From Oryzias latipes (Eukaryota > Chordata > Actinopteri > Beloniformes > Adrianichthyidae), in assembly GCF_002234675.1 (NCBI RefSeq), contig NC_019865.2:1984958-2048957 (forward strand): a stretch of 64,000 nucleotides of DNA, written 5' to 3'. A model generated the notes under the pieces. That model was given only the letters and a program-made list of their open reading frames with translations, was not told the DNA's origin and made no database searches. A program made the position numbers and the translations under genes. Positions 7,922 to 63,910 of the stretch are shown in pieces; positions within the stretch are counted from its first letter, which is position 1, and the number at the start of each line of letters is the position of its first letter.

Positions 7922-8020
7922 GCCTAGAATCCACTAACCACGCATGACAATGGTACGTTCCATCTTCATGTCTCCTGAGTGGGCCGTAGGAGACTGCAGC
8001 CACTCTTCTGATCCTCCAGG
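7922..8020. mobile_element. Fragment of a dispersed repeat leading into the minisatellite
   Basis: The segment containing ACAATGGTACGTTCCAT (from about 7945) matches, in reverse orientation, a segment at about 36975-37010 inside an itch intron. The similarity continues through the next 80 bp, with GGCCGTA and a CTGC-rich tract, up to the first minisatellite unit at 8021. I infer that this is the left part of one dispersed repeat whose right part was amplified into the tandem array. The superfamily is unknown. Confidence 0.6.
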
Positions 8021-10024
8021 GACCGGGACAACCCAAAACCCCACAGAACCCAGCATCCTAGGCCTCATCACGGACCGGGACAACCCAAAACCCCACAGAA
8101 CCCAGCATCCTAGGCCTCATCACGGACCGGGACAACCCAAAACCCCACAGAACCCAGCATCCTAGGCCTCATCACGGACCGGGACAACCCAAAAACCCCA
8201 CAGAACCCAGCATCCTAGGCCTCATCACGGACCGGGACAACCCAAAACCCCACAGAACCCAGCATCCTAGGCCTCATCACGGACCGGGACAACCCAAAAA
8301 CCCCACAGAACCCAGCATCCTAGGCCTCATGGACCGGGACAACCCAAAACCCCACAGAACCCAGCATCCTAGGCCTCATCACGGACCGGGACAACCCAAA
8401 AACCCCACAGAACCCAGCATCCAAGGCCACATCACGGACCGGGATAACCCAAAAACCCCACAGAACCCAGCATCCTAGGCCTCATCACGGACCGGGACAA
8501 CCCAAAAACCCCACAGAACCCAGCATCCTAGGCCTCATCACGGACCGGGACAACCCAAAAACCCCACAGAACCCAGCATCCAAGGCCTCATCACGGACCG
8601 GGACAACCCAAAAATCCCACAGAACCCAGCATCCTAGGCCTCATCACGGACCGGGACAACCCAAAAACCCCACAGAACCCAGCATCCTAGGCCTCATCAC
8701 GGACCGGGACAACCCAAAAACCCCACAGAACCCAGCATCCTAGGCCTCATCACGGACCGGGACAACCCAAAAACCCCACAGAACCCAGCATCCAAGGCCT
8801 CATCACGGACCGGGACAACCCAAAAACCCCACAGAACCCAGCATCCTAGGCCTCATCACGGACCGGGACAACCCAAAAACCCCACAGAACCCAGCATCCT
8901 AGGCCTCATCACGGACCGGGACAACCCAAAAACCCCACAGAACCCAGCATCCAAGGCCACATCACGGACCGGGATAACCCAAAAACCCCACAGAACCCAG
9001 CATCCTAGGCCTCATCACGGACCGGGACAACCCAAAAACCCCACAGAACCCAGCATCCTAGGCCTCATCACGGACCGGGACAACCCAAAAACCCCACAGA
9101 ACCCAGCATCCAAGGCCTCATCACGGACCGGGACAACCCAAAAACCCCACAGAACCCAGCATCCTAGGCCTCATCACGGACCGGGACAACCCAAAAACCC
9201 CACAGAACCCAGCATCCAAGGCCACATCACGGACCGGGATAACCCAAAAACCCCACAGAACCCAGCATCCTAGGCCTCATCACGGACCGGGACAACCCAA
9301 AAACCCCACAGAACCCAGCATCCTAGGCCTCATCACGGACCGGGACAACCCAAAAACCCCACAGAACCCAGCATCCTAGGCCTCATCACGGACCGGGACA
9401 ACCCAAAAACCCCACAGAACCCAGCATCCTAGGCCTCATCACGGACCGGGACAACCCAAAAACCCCACAGAACCCAGCATCCTAGGCCTCATCACGGACC
9501 GGGACAACCCAAAAACCCCACAGAACCCAGCATCCAAGGCCTCATCACGGACCGGGACAACCCAAAAATCCCACAGAACCCAGCATCCTAGGCCTCATCA
9601 CGGACCGGGACAACCCAAAAACCCCACAGAACCCAGCATCCAAGGCCTCATCACGGACCGGGACAACCCAAAAATCCCACAGAACCCAGCATCCTAGGCC
9701 TCATCACGGACCGGGACAACCCAAAAACCCCACAGAACCCAGCATCCTAGGCCTCATCACGGACCGGGACAACCCAAAAACCCCACAGAACCCAGCATCC
9801 AAGGCCTCATCACGGACCGGGACAACCCAAAAACCCCACAGAACCCAGCATCCTAGGCCTCATCACGGACCGGGACAACCCAAAAACCCCACAGAACCCA
9901 GCATCCTAGGCCTCATCACGGACCGGGACAACCCAAAAACCCCACAGAACCCAGCATCCTAGGCCTCATCACGGACCGGGACAACCCAAAAACCCCACAG
10001 AATCCAGCATCCAAGGCCGCATCA
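8021..10024. repeat. Minisatellite, about 38 units of 52-53 bp
   Basis: Each unit contains GACCGGGACAACCC, a run of four or five A, CCCCACAGAACCCAGCATCC and TAGGCCTCATCACG. Unit length is 52 bp with four A and 53 bp with five. Diagnostic variants recur: CCAAGG in place of CCTAGG, GGCCACATC with GGATAACCC, and AAAATCCC. The GGATAACCC variant occurs near 8443, 8973 and 9238, spaced 530 and 265 bp apart, which is exactly ten and five 53-bp units. There are no spacers, so it is not a CRISPR array. Open frames running through it are artefacts of the periodicity. Confidence 0.97.
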
Positions 10025-10809: not shown

Positions 10810-11044
10810 TAAAAAAAGATCCTGAAAACAACAAAACTCTCACAAGAGCAAAGACTAAAGATCTAAACCCAAGAAGGCACTGCATTTGGACCGCACAGAA
10901 CCAGAACACTAGTTTCAGACCAGAACAAAGAGTTTTCACTTTTTCTGAGAAGTTGGACAACAGTTTCCTTCACGCTGCAGATAAAACAGCAGTTTGTGCA
11001 CGTTCAGACGAGGAGCGCAAACAACACGCAAGGTCGACCCCAAA

Positions 11045-11139
11045 GCATGATGGTCCACTCATGATCAAAGCATGATGGTCCACTCATGATCAAAGCATGA
11101 TGGTCCACTCATGATCAAAGCATGATGGTCCACTCATGA
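11045..11139. repeat. 25-bp tandem repeat, about 3.8 copies
   Basis: The unit CATGATGGTCCACTCATGAT plus CAAAG is repeated almost perfectly four times; the last copy is truncated at CATGAG. Copies are identical, which suggests recent expansion. It lies in the probable e2f1 3' UTR. Confidence 0.95.
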
Positions 11140-12442: not shown

Positions 12443-15400
12443 CTAACCGTCCCCGAGGACGTGCGAGAGTTCGTCAAAGTCGCAGTCGAAGAGCTCGCTG
12501 ATGCCTTCGTGGTCCTCCAGACCAAAGTGATAATCGTGGCTCTGGGGAGGAGACAGGTTGATGAAGTTGTCCAACGCCAGAGGAAGGCCTTCGCCGTTCA
12601 GGAAGTCCGAGGAAGACAGCGGCGAGAGGTCAAAGTCGGCCATGTCTCCCAGGCTGGAGAACGGGTCGCCCCCCAGGAGGGATTCTGTGGGGGGAAACGG
12701 AAACGTCAGAAAACCGGAGGAATCCCGTGTGACGCTTCTCTAAAAGTTTGAAGCGATGCGAAAAATTTGTGGAAGCAGCAAACCATGATACCGCCACCGC
12801 CGTGTTTTACAAGCTCACTTTTGCTGAAAAGTTTATTTTTTCTTTCTTCTAAAATTTTAACTGTTGAGAAACAGAAGATTTTAGTCTCCAAAACAGAAAA
12901 GGGGTTCACTTTGTTTTTTATTTAATAAACTATGTTTATTTCCGTACAAATATTAGTTTCAAATAGAGGGAAGGCGGGGCCTCCGAAAATCCCAGGAGTG
13001 TTAAATTGTCTTTATCCGTCTCTCATTCTAGCCAGAATTGGAAAAATCCCCTTTTGCCGCTGTCGACGCACTTCGCCGTTTTTGACTGAAACAACTCGAT
13101 GGAAGCGACGCCTCACCTGCGTCTCCGCCGATCGCCGTGGATTCCTGTTGTGAGGCTGCCGTCGCCGTGGACGACGTGGACACGGGCGACGCCAGAGCCG
13201 CCTCCTGAGCGGCGGCGCTGCTCCTGAGCTGCGGCGGCGGCTCTGCAGGATGCGGGAGGAGGGGTGAGGCGAGGGAGGGGTCGGCGCCGGTTTTGGAGGG
13301 ACTGGTTCCCGTCACTGGGCTGCAAACGCCGGAGCTGTCCTCCGGACAGAGGAAGACGTCGATCTGACCTCTGGTGCTCTTCAGCGACACTTGGTAGCCC
13401 TGTGGAAAGGGGGCGGGGCAGAACTTAGAAAAACAAGCGGGGGTGGAGAAAAGAAGAAAAAAAAGGGGGGGGGGGCTCACCTCACTGGGCTCGGAGACCT
13501 GCATCTGCGTCTCCGGAGGAGCTCGGATCACCATGACCAGCTGATCCGGAGAGTCGAAGGACTGCCGGAGGTCCTGGCAGCGCACGTATCCCAGCGTGCA
13601 CTGCAGGTCAAGGAGCCAAAGCGCCCACATTTATGAAACGTGAAGACGAAAAACCGTCCCAGACCAAGGCGGGAGAGACATCAACGTCACATTTGTTGTT
13701 TTGAGAGGTGCAGTCTTACTGACAGGAAGTGGGCGTGGCTAGAGACGCTTTAAAGACGAGTTCCCAGAACGAGGCTGAGGCTACGGTTCCTGAAGACAAT
13801 GTGCACACATTTTGATTTTTATCTAACTTTTTCAGAGTTATTTAATAGTTAGGGGATCAGTTTTAGGACAAATGGAGAAACGAATACTCATTGCAAAAAA
13901 AAATAATAATCCAATTTTTAAAGTGACAAAGTCACATCATTTAGCTTCAAAGATGATCAGAGTGGGACTTTGAAGTATACACACAAAAAGCAACAGTTGT
14001 GTTGTTGTTGTAACACCCAAACGCAGACCTCCGTCTCTGGAAAGGCGCCTCCTTTGAGGCTGAAGGATATTTCTTGTTCTGTGGATCCTCAGTCAGGAGC
14101 CGCAGCTGCAGGTTGCATTTGGCGATCAGCTCGTCCAGCTGCTCCTCGGCCTCCGTCAGGTCGCACGCCTCCCTCTGCAGCTCCTTATGGCGGGACACCA
14201 TGGAGGCGTCGATGCGATTTCCTCTGCAGGAGAGCAGAAACAGAAACGGAGCTTCTGTGATACAGGCGTGGCGGTTCTTTCTCCATCTTCTCCTGTCTGC
14301 TTCCTCAGACAGAGATGCCAGAACATTGAAGGTCGCTCCTTCATTTTGTACGGAGTGATATTCATGTCACCACGTTTCACACAAGTTGCAGATGAAAACA
14401 TTGAATATTTGCTTTCAAAAATGTTTTTTTAATGAAATTTGTTTTTCTTTCTAAATTTCTTTTGCCTTTAAAAAATATTTTTGTGTTTGCAAAAACGAAC
14501 TAGTTGTGTCTCCTCTCAGTTTTTTCCCATCTTTGATTTTGCTCTCATACGTTTCAGTTTAGCGTTTTGCAAATGTAAATCTTTTTTTTTCCTTTAGGTA
14601 AAAACTAAAATTTTGAAAGCAAAATAATTTGAAGGCAACATTTTTTTTACAGCAAATATTTAACATTTTCATTTGCAACTTAGACAGTTTTGTGTGAAAC
14701 ATGGCGGCATAAATATTACTCCATAATGTTAAAGTGAATAGTTTCAGCAAAACTGATCAGGGATCCGTTTCATTGATTGCTGATCGGGGGAACCACACAA
14801 AGTTGCTGGTTGCTAAGTTAGAAAAAAAACAACTTGTTTTGCATTAACCCATCCGGAACCAGCAGAATATGACAGCATGAGGTTCTGCCAGGGGAGGAGA
14901 AAACCCCAAAGCTCCTTTTCTTCAATGATCCTTAACTTAATTCAACTCCTGAGAGGTTTCAACGTCTAACCAAATGTTCCTTCAAAAATAATGTTCCCCA
15001 ACAGAACGGCTGGATAGAGGTCCATCATCCAGCTGCGGTTCCGGTAGCATTTCCTGTTTCCGTGCTCGTCACCTCCCCCATGACCATCAACTCACAGCCA
15101 CTGGATGTGGTTCTTGGACTTCTTGGAGATGAGCTGGATTCCCTCCAGGACGTTGGTTATGTCGTAGATGCGCCTCTTCTGGACGTCCAGGACCTGCGAG
15201 GCCCAGTTCAGATCCACCACGCCATCGGCCGACTGGGACAGCAGGTTGAGGAAGCGCTTGGTGGTCAGGTTCAGGGAGGTGTCGTACCTCGACTTCTCCG
15301 CCGTGCTTCGAGGAACTGGAAAAGCAGTGAAAAACACGCCGCCTTAAACCTCCTCCACAAACAAAACACACATCCAGGTGGAAAACAGGTGATCCTCCGA

Positions 15401-16874
15401 CTCCAGCTGTGAAGACGTTCCAGCGGCACAGGCAGGCCTCGTTTGGACCACGCCATCGAAACTTTTATTTTCTTTAAGGTAATATTTATAACCAGCCTTT
15501 AAAGAAACTCCAAGCCCCGCCCTCTCTGACGTGGCCACGGGACCTGGATTTCGGAGCCACGGCGGGTCTTTTGGTGGTTTAAAAATAGAAATCCACCGAT
15601 GAAGATTCTGCTGAAGGAAACATCTTAGAACTGAACGGTCAAATGTGGATTTCAGTGATAAAAAAACAAAAGGAACTGAGGCTCAGCCTTCAGCAGAAAT
15701 TCTCCTTCAACTTCTCATCCCAACGGCCCCAAACGTCTGCGGACGGAAACGCTTCACGCAGCATGTGGACGCCATGATGTCATGAGTCAGTCTGAGCGTT
15801 ACGCAATCCAAAAGATGTAAAATGATTGGTGGTCCTGTTCAAAAACACAGGACCTGGACTGCTCTATCCTGCATTAAATTAGGATTTAGATAGTAAAGAA
15901 TTCATTAAACACAGTTTCTGACTCATGAAAATGTGAAATAGGAGGATTTTATAGTATTTTACGCACCGGGTCCTCCTAAGACCCGGTCCTTTTGAAAAAC
16001 CGCTGGACCTGGACTCATTTTTATTTAATCATTTTAAAGTTTTTGTGGCTTTCCTGCTCGCAGCGCTCTGTTGTTTGGGATTCTGTTGCCTCCCCTCTTG
16101 TGAATTCGTGTCGTCTGCCTGCAATGCAGCTCACCAAACGACGGCAGACTAAAAATAGATCATTTTAAATTGATCAACTACATAAAATCATCCCATTTCA
16201 ATGTTCATAAATCAGAAGCTGTGTTTAATGAATTCTTTACTATCTAAATCCTAATTTTAATCCAGGTTTGAGCAGCCCAGGTCCTGTGGTTTCTGAAAAG
16301 GACCTGGTCTAAGGTGGTCTTAGGGTGAAAAATGCAGTGGAATGTTCCTTTAGTGCCCCCGCTAACCGGACGCCAGCTTCAGCGCCGTGAAAGGATGCCG
16401 AGTCGGCGCTCCTGCTCCTGAGCGTGCGGCGTACCTCTGGGAGGAGCAGGAGTAGAAGGAGGTGCTTGGCTGGCGGAGGATCGGGTGGTGCTGACATACT
16501 GGTGGTCGCTATCCAGGTCCAGCTTCCTCTTCACCTAATCATCAAATGAAGAGGAATCGATTATGTGAACCCCGGCGTGTGATGATGTGGCGGCGGCGGC
16601 CGCCTTGAAGCCACGCCCTCACCGGAGGTCTTCCCAGAGCCGGCCTCCTCCTGTCCTGGCCCCCCGCGTCGGCGTGGCTCTGCGGCGTGGCGAATAGCAG
16701 GATTTCCCCCGTGCTGCTGGGGGCGGCCAGCGGGTGGAGTCCCTCATTGCTGGGGCTGGTGATGATGACGATCTGGTGGTCCTGGCTCAGATCGATGCTC
16801 CCGGAGTTCAGCAGAGTCTCAAAGTCCTTCAGCAGATCCTCGGATGTCTGACCCGTTATCAGAGTCTCTGACAT
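12443..16874 (-). CDS. e2f1: Transcription factor E2F1
   Basis: E2F1 pairs with a DP protein, binds TTTSSCGC-type sites and activates S-phase genes; RB proteins repress it. Coding exons: 16623-16874, 16435-16534, 15096-15315, 14071-14223, 13481-13595, 13117-13399 and 12443-12684, together 454 aa, close to human E2F1. Visible parts: LLFATPQ and [14 protein letters not shown], the cyclin-A-binding region, near residues 60-91; the winged-helix DNA-binding domain at about 120-190 with [13 protein letters not shown]; the leucine-rich dimerisation part [16 protein letters not shown]; the marked box with GYVRCQDLR and IDVFLCPED; and the C-terminal transactivation/RB-binding motif [12 protein letters not shown]. 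The ending LFDCDF favours E2F1 over E2F2 or E2F3. The ATG at 16874 was chosen because the open frame upstream of it has no ATG. Intron 4 is AT-AC (separate entry). Confidence 0.96.
13596..14070 (-). other. e2f1: AT-AC minor-class (U12-type) intron 4 of e2f1
   Basis: No GT donor fits the end of exon 4, but the minus strand at 14070-14063 reads ATATCCTT, the U12 AT-AC donor consensus. The 3' end reads TCCTTGAC (13614-13607), a U12 branch-point match, and terminates in AC at 13596. The branch adenosine lies 12 nt from the exon. This junction restores the conserved frame ...[19 protein letters not shown] solution using the nearby CAG acceptor leaves no usable donor. Confidence 0.93.
14336..14745. 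mobile_element. Palindromic MITE in e2f1 intron 3
   Basis: The left arm (14336-14425) carries CGGAGTGATATTCATG, TTTCACACAAGTTGCAG and GAATATTTGC. The right arm (about 14632-14732) carries the same blocks inverted and diverged, for example GCAAATATTTAACATTTTC and ATAAATATTACTCCAT. There is no coding sequence between the arms. A related end, with CGGAGTGATATTTATGCCAC, occurs at 54620-54650, so the element is dispersed. Confidence 0.7.
15836..16340. repeat. Fold-back element in e2f1 intron 2
   Basis: About 120 bp at 15840-15960 is inverted at 16185-16305. Shared blocks include AGGATTTAGATAGTAAAG followed by AATTCATTAAACACAG, and CACAGGACCTG at the outer ends. A second pair, CCTAAGACCCGGTCCTTTT (about 15975) and its inverse (about 16297), adds to the symmetry. 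The arms would form a long hairpin in the pre-mRNA. No coding capacity was seen. It is probably a non-autonomous DNA element. Confidence 0.75.
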
Positions 16875-18590: not shown

Positions 18591-25808
<7,218 letters not shown>

Positions 25809-28426: not shown

Positions 28427-46302
<17,876 letters not shown>

Positions 46303-53516: not shown

Positions 53517-56500
53517 TCAGATGCCGGTGGTCTCCACCTTGTCGAGGGCGTCATTTTGCCCCCGGTTGCCCGCCTCGCCTGAGTTTTCTTGCTGCATCAC
53601 AGACAGAGCGTGGCTGTTCTCTTGTGGTTCCGAAAGCTGTGCGGGAGCGGCATGCTCCAGGTTGACGGTCGCACGGCTGGTCTCGGCGATGGACGAGTTG
53701 GTGTGGTAGTTGAAGTGGTTGTTAGTGGCGGGCGTTTCTCCAAAGCCGGTTTTCCCCCAGGCCGATTTCCACTGAACCCATTTCCTCTGCAGGGCCGTTT
53801 GAGCCTGGAATCCACACGAGAAATTAAGAGCCATCAGAGTGCTTTTACTTTTTTTGTCCTTTCTTTTGCAAATGCAGAAGCTGGGTAAACCTCACAGATG
53901 GTGCACACAAACACATTGACCTTTCTCAGGTGCAGAGAATTATTCTGCACTCATGCGGTGTTGGGAGATTTCTTTGTGTTTTCTGAGTCTGATTGTCGTT
54001 TTTCCGATTATTCCGGGACCACACGAACGCAGCATTTCTCCATCAACTGCGATTAAAACGTTCTGTGTTCTCGTTTTTATTTTCAGTTAAAATTGAAACA
54101 TGATATACGCACATTGCAGGGGGATTACCAACACACTCCATGCTCTAAAACCCTTTGTGGCCCACAAGTCAAAAAGTTTGCCCACCCCCGAGGTCTGAAT
54201 GCCAAAAACACAGCTTCATACCCCTGATTGCTCCACTTAACACTGCTTTGTTCTGACTCTGCTGCATCTTTGCTCCTTGCTGTGCAAAATTACCTGATTT
54301 CGCCTCCAAATCTGGAAATAGAGCCCGTTCAGGGGCAAAGGAGCGCTGTCTGTGAGGGCAAAATGCTATCAAGAGACCACTAATACTGTCATCATTCAAA
54401 TATTGTAAATATTTAAAAGCTACATTCCATATAATTGATTTAATGGACCCAAAAACATAAACAAAGTGTATTTGCTAAACAACAAAGTTTGAGTTTTGTG
54501 GCTCTTGATCTTCTCTTCTTCTTTATCTCCTGATACTTTTTATTCTGTGAGTAAAACTGCAGGAAAAACAGCTTTATGGCTTCTTAATAAGATGAAAACT
54601 CTAAATGAACTTGACAATCACGGAGTGATATTTATGCCACAACGTTGCACAAAAAAACATCTTCTGAAAGCAAATATATAAATATACATATGTAGTAACA
54701 AAACAATAAGTAAAATTTTTGTAAAAATATTTCCATAGACAATCAAATGGATGAGGGTTCAAAAACTTTGCTGTTTTTTGTGCAAATAAAATATTCCACA
54801 AACCTCAGAGTTGCAGAAACAGAAAATAATTGCCACCATGAGTCCCTGCAGAGAGAATAAATATGAACAGAGAAGATGATCATACAGATAATATGTAACG
54901 TGTTTTTAAGGTCAATATCTGAGCAACATCCCTGCTGCTCATCCACAGCCTTTTAAAGGAGTTTATCACCCAGCATAAATGCTAGGTGTAGCTATACTTT
55001 ACTGCTGATTATGTTTAAGTTACTTCAATGGAAGTGACAGATTTTTCTGGCCACTACAATGTAACCTGTGAATCTGCGTCCGCCACTGCTCAGTCTCTCA
55101 CCCAGACGTACCTGGAAGTGGGAGAAGATGTTGTTGAAGAAATCGTAGACGTAGCCGATGCATCCCTCCGGCCTCCACGGCATGAGGATGAACTGGACTC
55201 CCAGCAGCGGGATGAGGATGAGGGTGGCCCTCACCGCCTTCATGTAGGCCGTGGACTCGGTGCAGTGCGTCTCCTTCAGCTTGGTGATCAGAACACGGAT
55301 GATGTTTAGGAGAAAGAAGAGGTTAACCTGGATAAACAGACAGAAGATGAAAAACAAACACGCATGAATGAGATTTAAGGACTGGATGAAGGATCAGAGT
55401 TGGAGATCAGAAGTTAACATTTCCCCCTGCTGCCTGGGTGGCATTTAAAGCACCATGAAAGATTTGTTTTTTTCTCTGACAGCAGTCAGCCATAATTACT
55501 CTTAAAGGCACAGAATATTTTTGTTGGCTGATCCATCACCGTTTCAAAGATCCTGTGCAGATAAATGGAGATGGAGTTTTTATTTACTTATTTTTCTTAC
55601 AGCTTTGACCTTAAAGTTTGAGCAAAAACACAACTTACAACCAGAGCCACTTGGATGGGGCCATGAATGATGTAGACCAGATGCGTATGTGGACTGATCC
55701 AACACCTGAAAGAAATACAGACGCTTCTGATCCTTCAAGCTGTGTAAGAAATCCTTCTGGTATTTAACTCCAGCTCATGAATTTTCATCAGAACAGTGGG
55801 CTTTAAAAACTGCGTTTTTAACATTTTCTCAGCTTTAACTCTTTTAAGGACAAGAAAGATGTAGCTATTTTGAAAAGTTTGCGTCTATTGAACTCTTTTG
55901 TGTCAAAATTTGAGGGACAAACGTTCAGTTTTAGAAGTTTTTGAAGTAATTTTTGCTGTAGTACTTGGAAATATTTAAAACCCAATCTAAATATCAAAAT
56001 AAAATCAGGGGCTAATGCATTTTGCCAGCTAACTCAGTTTAATTAATATTGTAAAAATCCTTTAGAAGACAAAATTAAAAGGACAAAAACCAAAATGTGC
56101 ACAGCCTGTAGGTTTTTCATGTACCACTAATTATATAGATTTTACCTTTAATGAGACTATGAAATTATGTTAAAGGACTCAATCTTACTTGTCGTCGAAG
56201 TAAAGCCAGCGGGCAACAGCGTACGTGGTGGCAGGAATGATGGGAAAACCTGTGAACAAAAAACAAACAAACACAGGGACATGAGATCACTGAATCTCTG
56301 CTTGGTTTTTGGTTTATTGAAAAAGAAGGAAAAATACCATCATATGTAATAGTAATTGCCCCACCCAGTGGCGGTTTTTGATATGGGCGATGTGGGCGGT
56401 CGCCCAGGGCGGCACTTCATAGGGGGCGGCATTTGCCGTGCCTGAGGCGTTACACCTAATGTGCTACATACTATATTCAAAGAGGAAGCTTGGAGCTTTT

Positions 56501-63020: not shown

Positions 63021-63084
63021 GTGTGCGATTGTGTGAAGGGGGACTTTGAGGAAGGTTTAGATTTCTCTTTGGTTTTGATTTCTT

Positions 63085-63910
63085 GCTATACTTTTCTTCA
63101 TTTGTCATTTTATGTTTTATTTTGTTGGGTCCAGGGGACAATTCTCAAATTGAAGTTTTAATCATCCGCTCTGAAGACAAGAGAGAGATGATTTTACCAC
63201 ATCTTCAGAATTTTAAAACTTCTCAATGTGTGAGAAATCTGGGCGGACTTTTTGACTCTGAGCTACATTTTATCCCACACTTTAAAAATGTCGTCAAGAC
63301 AGGATTTTCCATCTTAAGAACATTGCCAGAGTCCGCCGTTCCTCTTTCTTGCCAGCACAGAGATGCTGATGCTTTTATTTTCATTCGTTTGGATTATTGT
63401 AATGCCCTGCTCTCTGGTTTCCCCAAAAAGTCTATTTCAAACTTACAACTTCTACAGAACTCTGCGGCACGAGTTCTGACGAGGACCAGAGGGCGGGAAC
63501 ACATTACACCGGTTTTAAAATCGCTGCATTGGCTCCCTGTGTGTTTCAGGATTGATTTTAAAATTCTTTTAATGGTTTATAAATGTTTTTATGGTCTTGG
63601 GCCTTTTTATTTAAATGATATTCTTTTAAAGTATGAGCCCTCGCGGACCCTGAGGCCTCTTAGTTGTTCCTAAGGTGAGAACCAAAACTTATGATGAGGC
63701 TTCGTTCTGCCATCTTCGTCTGTGGAACAGGCTGCTGTAAAACTTCAGAGCCGCAGAGACTGTAGAAGTTTTTAAGAAGAGGCTCAAGACCCACCTTTTT
63801 AATTTAGCTTTTAGTTGATTTTAACTGCTAATTTATTATATTAGTTTTAGTATAGGCTATTTTATGTATTTAATTATGCATCTTATTCTCATTTTTATGT
63901 TTTTTTATAC
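63085..63910 (+). mobile_element. L2-like LINE reverse-transcriptase 3' part
   Basis: An open frame to 63673 reads RNLGGLFDSELHFIPHFKNV, IRLDYCNALLSGFPKKSISN, LQLLQNSAARVLTRTRGREH and TPVLKSLHWLPVCFRIDFKI, the terminal part of an L2-type reverse transcriptase. A frameshift follows, then LWNRLL and VFKKRLKTHLFNLAF. It is 5'-truncated near 63130. The related 3' end at 35.0 kb shares KTxLFKLAF-type wording. Confidence 0.85.

Follow-up and report, generated by a model that had tools for sequence, protein, structure and literature searches.

The E2F gene and its surroundings

The whole stretch of DNA analysed here, hereafter the window, is 64 kb long and comes from medaka (Oryzias latipes). It carries on its minus strand (16874..12443) a seven-exon E2F gene, with a coding sequence of 1365 nt including the stop codon, for 454 aa. 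Exon borders were set by eye and then located in the sequence, as follows.

16623..16874, minus strand: e2f1 coding exon 1, with a start codon at 16874 picked by eye
16435..16534, minus strand: e2f1 coding exon 2, from the gene model
15096..15315, minus strand: e2f1 coding exon 3, encoding the winged-helix DNA-binding domain (Pfam E2F_TDP)
14071..14223, minus strand: e2f1 exon 4, 5′ of the minor intron, where the CC-MB domain begins
13481..13595, minus strand: e2f1 exon 5, 3′ of the minor intron, encoding the middle of the CC-MB domain
13117..13399, minus strand: e2f1 coding exon 6, whose start encodes the last part of the CC-MB domain
12443..12684, minus strand: e2f1 coding exon 7, containing the stop codon

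Two E2F domains were recognised by Pfam in the 454-aa model, E2F_TDP (PF02319, E 6.3e-26) and E2F_CC-MB (PF16421, E 1.9e-30). Five PDB matches were obtained with phmmer, the best being the CC-MB domain of human E2F1 (2aze_B, 105.1 bits, model residues 201-301), followed by the E2F4 DNA-binding domain (71.1 bits), E2F8 (41.3 bits), and the CC-MB domains of E2F4 (35 bits) and E2F5 (25.7 bits). E2F2 and E2F3 chains were absent among these five matches, so that the scores compare E2F1 with E2F4, E2F5 and E2F8. Between E2F1 and E2F2 or E2F3, we presume E2F1 from the C-terminal DYHFGLE...LFDCDF. Exon 7 presumably encodes the retinoblastoma-binding region, as a C-terminal stretch of 23 residues. Viral contigs searched for relatives of the 101-aa CC-MB stretch gave one locus (L001, 32% identity, E 4e-6 against the candidate stretches only). 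This match was judged spurious, the ORFs reading as those of a phage-like contig.

Past the 3′ end of e2f1, positions 8020-10024 are occupied by a 53-bp minisatellite (38 copies, 97% matches) which has open frames on both strands, one 52-aa frame being without PDB match. A 25-bp tandem repeat (11041-11139, 4 copies, 100% matches) lies between this minisatellite and the e2f1 stop codon. Divergent from e2f1, C2H2 zinc-finger ORFs are found on the plus strand at 19480-25808, and the fragment 25233-25808 is a zinc finger by Pfam; we assume that these ORFs resemble ZNF341, a neighbour of human E2F1. The minus strand also contains fragments of the HECT domain of a ubiquitin ligase from the NEDD4 family (29952-30299; best PDB match WWP1 with 117.7 bits, ITCH 112.8 bits) and an exon fragment of a secretin-family receptor (55025-55393; Pfam 7tm_2, 1.8e-15). 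A 207-aa ORF on the plus strand (63050-63673) had zero Pfam matches, and presumably resembles a remnant of a LINE-type reverse transcriptase. Scanning the window against Rfam gave 0 matches at the gathering threshold.

Signals of intron 4

The original prediction had placed an AT-AC intron at 13596..14070 and left its strand unnamed. These coordinates proved exact, and the strand is the minus strand. The intron and its signals are listed below.

13596..14070, minus strand: intron 4, U12-type AT-AC, 475 nt, phase 2, defined by motifs and frame
14063..14070, minus strand: 5′ splice site ATATCCTT, matching RTATCCTT at 8 of 8 positions
13607..13614, minus strand: branch-site motif TCCTTGAC, matching TCCTTRAC at 8 of 8 positions, its adenosine at 13608 being followed by 12 intron bases
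13596..13597, minus strand: terminal AC of intron 4, read from the sequence

Exon 4 ends with ...AACAAGAA at 14071 and exon 5 begins with GCTGGGATAC at 13595, while the 5′ end of the intron reads ATATCCTTCA and its 3′ end ...GGCTCCTTGACCTGCAGTGCAC, the last bases being TGCAC. That the donor, a branch motif 12 nt from the 3′ end and the terminal AC would fit the AT-AC class was borne out: both motifs matched in full the consensus sequences given in PMC2846911, the class being scored by consensus matching and not by position weight matrices. The branch distance of 12 nt is inside the 11-13 nt range described as optimal for the branch adenosine in PMC6717393.

The five other introns of the gene (1, 2, 3, 5 and 6) are all GT-AG. 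Compared with the 8 of 8 matches of intron 4, they matched the U12 donor consensus at 2, 4, 3, 3 and 2 positions of 8, and the U12 branch consensus at 5, 5, 5, 4 and 5 positions of 8, respectively. U12-type introns lack a pyrimidine-rich region ahead of the acceptor; pyrimidines there numbered 12 of 20 in intron 4, versus 14, 16, 17, 17 and 15 of 20 in the GT-AG introns, a small difference. As several AT-AC introns are handled by the major spliceosome, according to PMC6717393, intron 4 could in principle be excised by the U2 machinery. We hold this to be extremely improbable: the U2 donor consensus GTRAGT was matched at only 2 of 6 positions at intron 4, and the U12 consensus in full; moreover, PMC12332006 describes retention of the mammalian E2F1 intron under U12 block.

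How often such motifs arise by chance was estimated by simulating the window 200 times with a first-order Markov model. ATATCCTT and TCCTTGAC occur once each in the window, both strands included. A strict pair, defined as ATATCCTT followed within 5 kb by TCCTTRAC-N9-13-AC, was found once in the window, and at least one such pair was present in 20 of the 200 simulations (mean 0.11). Simulated means over both strands were 1.91 strict donors and 1.455 strict branch-plus-AC sites. Looser U12-like pairs numbered 4 on the plus strand and 1, intron 4 itself, on the minus strand, below the simulated mean of 8.76 (both strands), and at least one was seen in 198 of 200 simulations. The motif pair by itself is therefore poor evidence for a U12 intron, since even the strict pair turns up in 20 of 200 simulated windows. 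What carries the call is the placement of the motifs on a junction fixed by homology. The chance of their landing there is about 6e-7, a figure obtained by arithmetic from the simulated densities, with a tolerance of +/−30 nt for both intron ends.

The exon 4/5 junction

Human E2F1 aligned by phmmer to model residues 201-301 without any gap across the exon 4/5 junction, 54 of the 101 residues being identical. To evaluate alternative junctions, the start of exon 4 and the end of exon 5 were held fixed, and single-intron models with no extra exon between them were considered. A total of 3,261 donor-acceptor pairs, from five dinucleotide classes and at least 60 nt apart, were tried, and 186 produced open frames. 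Both LQLRLLTED and GYVRCQDL were retained in 14 of the 186, and without extra residues only with the AT-AC pair 14070/13596. When any ends were accepted, there were 254,541 possible removals of 30 nt or more, and 13,708 of them were in frame and open. The top score against human E2F1 (2aze_B), 278, was then a three-way tie between the AT-AC junction and two slides of it, one by 1 nt and the other by 2 nt. The claim that this junction is the only one giving the conserved frame was upheld, with the nuance that the two slides yield one identical protein; they end with TA-CG and AT-GC, which are not recognised splice ends.

A U2-type intron, GT-AG or GC-AG, with shifted ends would make the AT-AC match coincidental. 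In-frame, stop-free choices of this kind do exist (33 of 581 GT-AG pairs, 78 of 802 GC-AG pairs), and two GT-AG and four GC-AG choices even keep both conserved flanks, but all six insert residues into the conserved CC-MB domain: 27 and 31 for GT-AG, and 5, 9, 17 and 28 for GC-AG. Best scores against human E2F1 were 263 for GC-AG and 241 for GT-AG, compared to 278 for AT-AC; the two other classes, GT-AC and AT-AG, reached 257 and 214. Shifted ends moreover leave unexplained an exact 8/8 donor together with an exact 8/8 branch motif, and we regard a U2-type intron of this sort as very improbable. As the best GT-AG alternative adds 27 residues, it is plausible that gene finders would get exons 4 and 5 wrong, as the original prediction had it.

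A CAG ending at 13601 sits 5 nt ahead of the AC end and 7 nt past the branch adenosine, and might serve, with the same donor, as a minor AT-AG site. As the main site it is unlikely, to the point that we give it almost no chance, because its use would shift the frame and end the protein after 265 aa. An occasional use of this CAG might generate a frameshifted transcript tuning the dose of e2f1 in fish, an idea that we find quite improbable.

Probable minor splicing of e2f1, and its relatives in the E2F family

The splice-site and branch motifs favour the U12-type AT-AC reading, as do the spacing of the branch, the junction forced by homology and the published minor introns of E2F genes. We conclude that intron 4 almost certainly belongs to the classical U12-dependent AT-AC introns, and that its orthologue in mammals is most likely the minor intron of E2F1. 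In U12-type introns, U11 and U12 bind the donor and branch motifs, and the minor spliceosome performs the excision. At intron 4, ATATCCTT and TCCTTGAC would be the sites recognised by the U11 and U12 snRNPs, U4atac/U6atac.U5 would then join, and excision of the intron would bring together AA|G inside a lysine codon, giving a conserved 14-residue stretch in the CC-MB domain. Judging from the sequence, the minor spliceosome probably removes intron 4 in medaka. The motifs, combined with the mammalian data, suggest that e2f1 expression may depend on U12 splicing, as had been proposed.

If minor splicing failed, intron 4 would be expected to be retained, with an early stop: the predicted product ends after 282 aa, its stop falling 749 nt ahead of the last exon junction. 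Skipping of exon 5 is predicted to give a stop after 247 aa, and skipping of exon 4 (153 nt) to keep the frame, yielding 403 aa with part of the CC-MB domain lost. Early-stop e2f1 products may possibly undergo nonsense-mediated decay. According to PMC8034651, some mis-spliced minor-intron transcripts, E2f3 included, were present on polysomes although their decay had been predicted.

The statement that E2F-family genes are known for minor-class introns agrees with the literature: such introns are published for E2f1-E2f6, U12DB having already held E2f1, E2f2, E2f3, E2f5 and E2f6, and E2f4 having been added by PMC6717393. E2F is also counted among the families enriched for minor introns, with 75% of genes (PMC6865273). 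Functional data are described in two further papers: in human A549 cells a U12 antisense oligonucleotide led to E2F1 intron retention, while in AML cells the E2f1 minor intron was retained on Rnpc3 loss (PMC12332006), and zebrafish zrsr2 mutants retain an e2f4 intron (PMC9501576). A pufferfish has orthologues of human E2F1-6, the duplications predating the tetrapod/teleost split (PMC3224931). For a minor intron specifically in fish e2f1, no mention was found in the open-licence literature searched. Introns of this kind are familiar, and E2F1 was already among the genes known to have one. Intron 4 adds one more clean example of minor-intron conservation in a cell-cycle gene and is of use for a correct annotation of the locus, and the general view is unchanged, E2F genes being already an established minor-intron group.

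Among the relatives of intron 4, the closest is the minor intron of mammalian E2F1, which belongs to the same family member, lies, to judge by a primer in PMC12332006, past a stretch coding for QLQESE and, according to that paper, is mis-spliced in mammalian cells depleted of U12 or Rnpc3. The forward primer named E2f1_U12_intron encodes QLQESE, and in the alignment this stretch falls on fish exon 4; we took this primer as mouse, from its place above the heading 'Human'. Its position fits with the same intron site in mammal and fish, short of proof, and an exact orthology of the two sites is probable. The fish intron differs in that both its length and its internal sequence are its own, the comparison with the mammalian intron being made by primer position and not by sequence. 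The minor introns of E2F2, E2F3, E2F4, E2F5 and E2F6 belong to paralogous genes, and are likened to intron 4 by gene listing and not by intron position. Finally, the human SMYD2 U12 intron shares with intron 4 the donor ATATCCTT, a branch CCTTGAC and the AC end, in an unrelated gene (PMC7367187).
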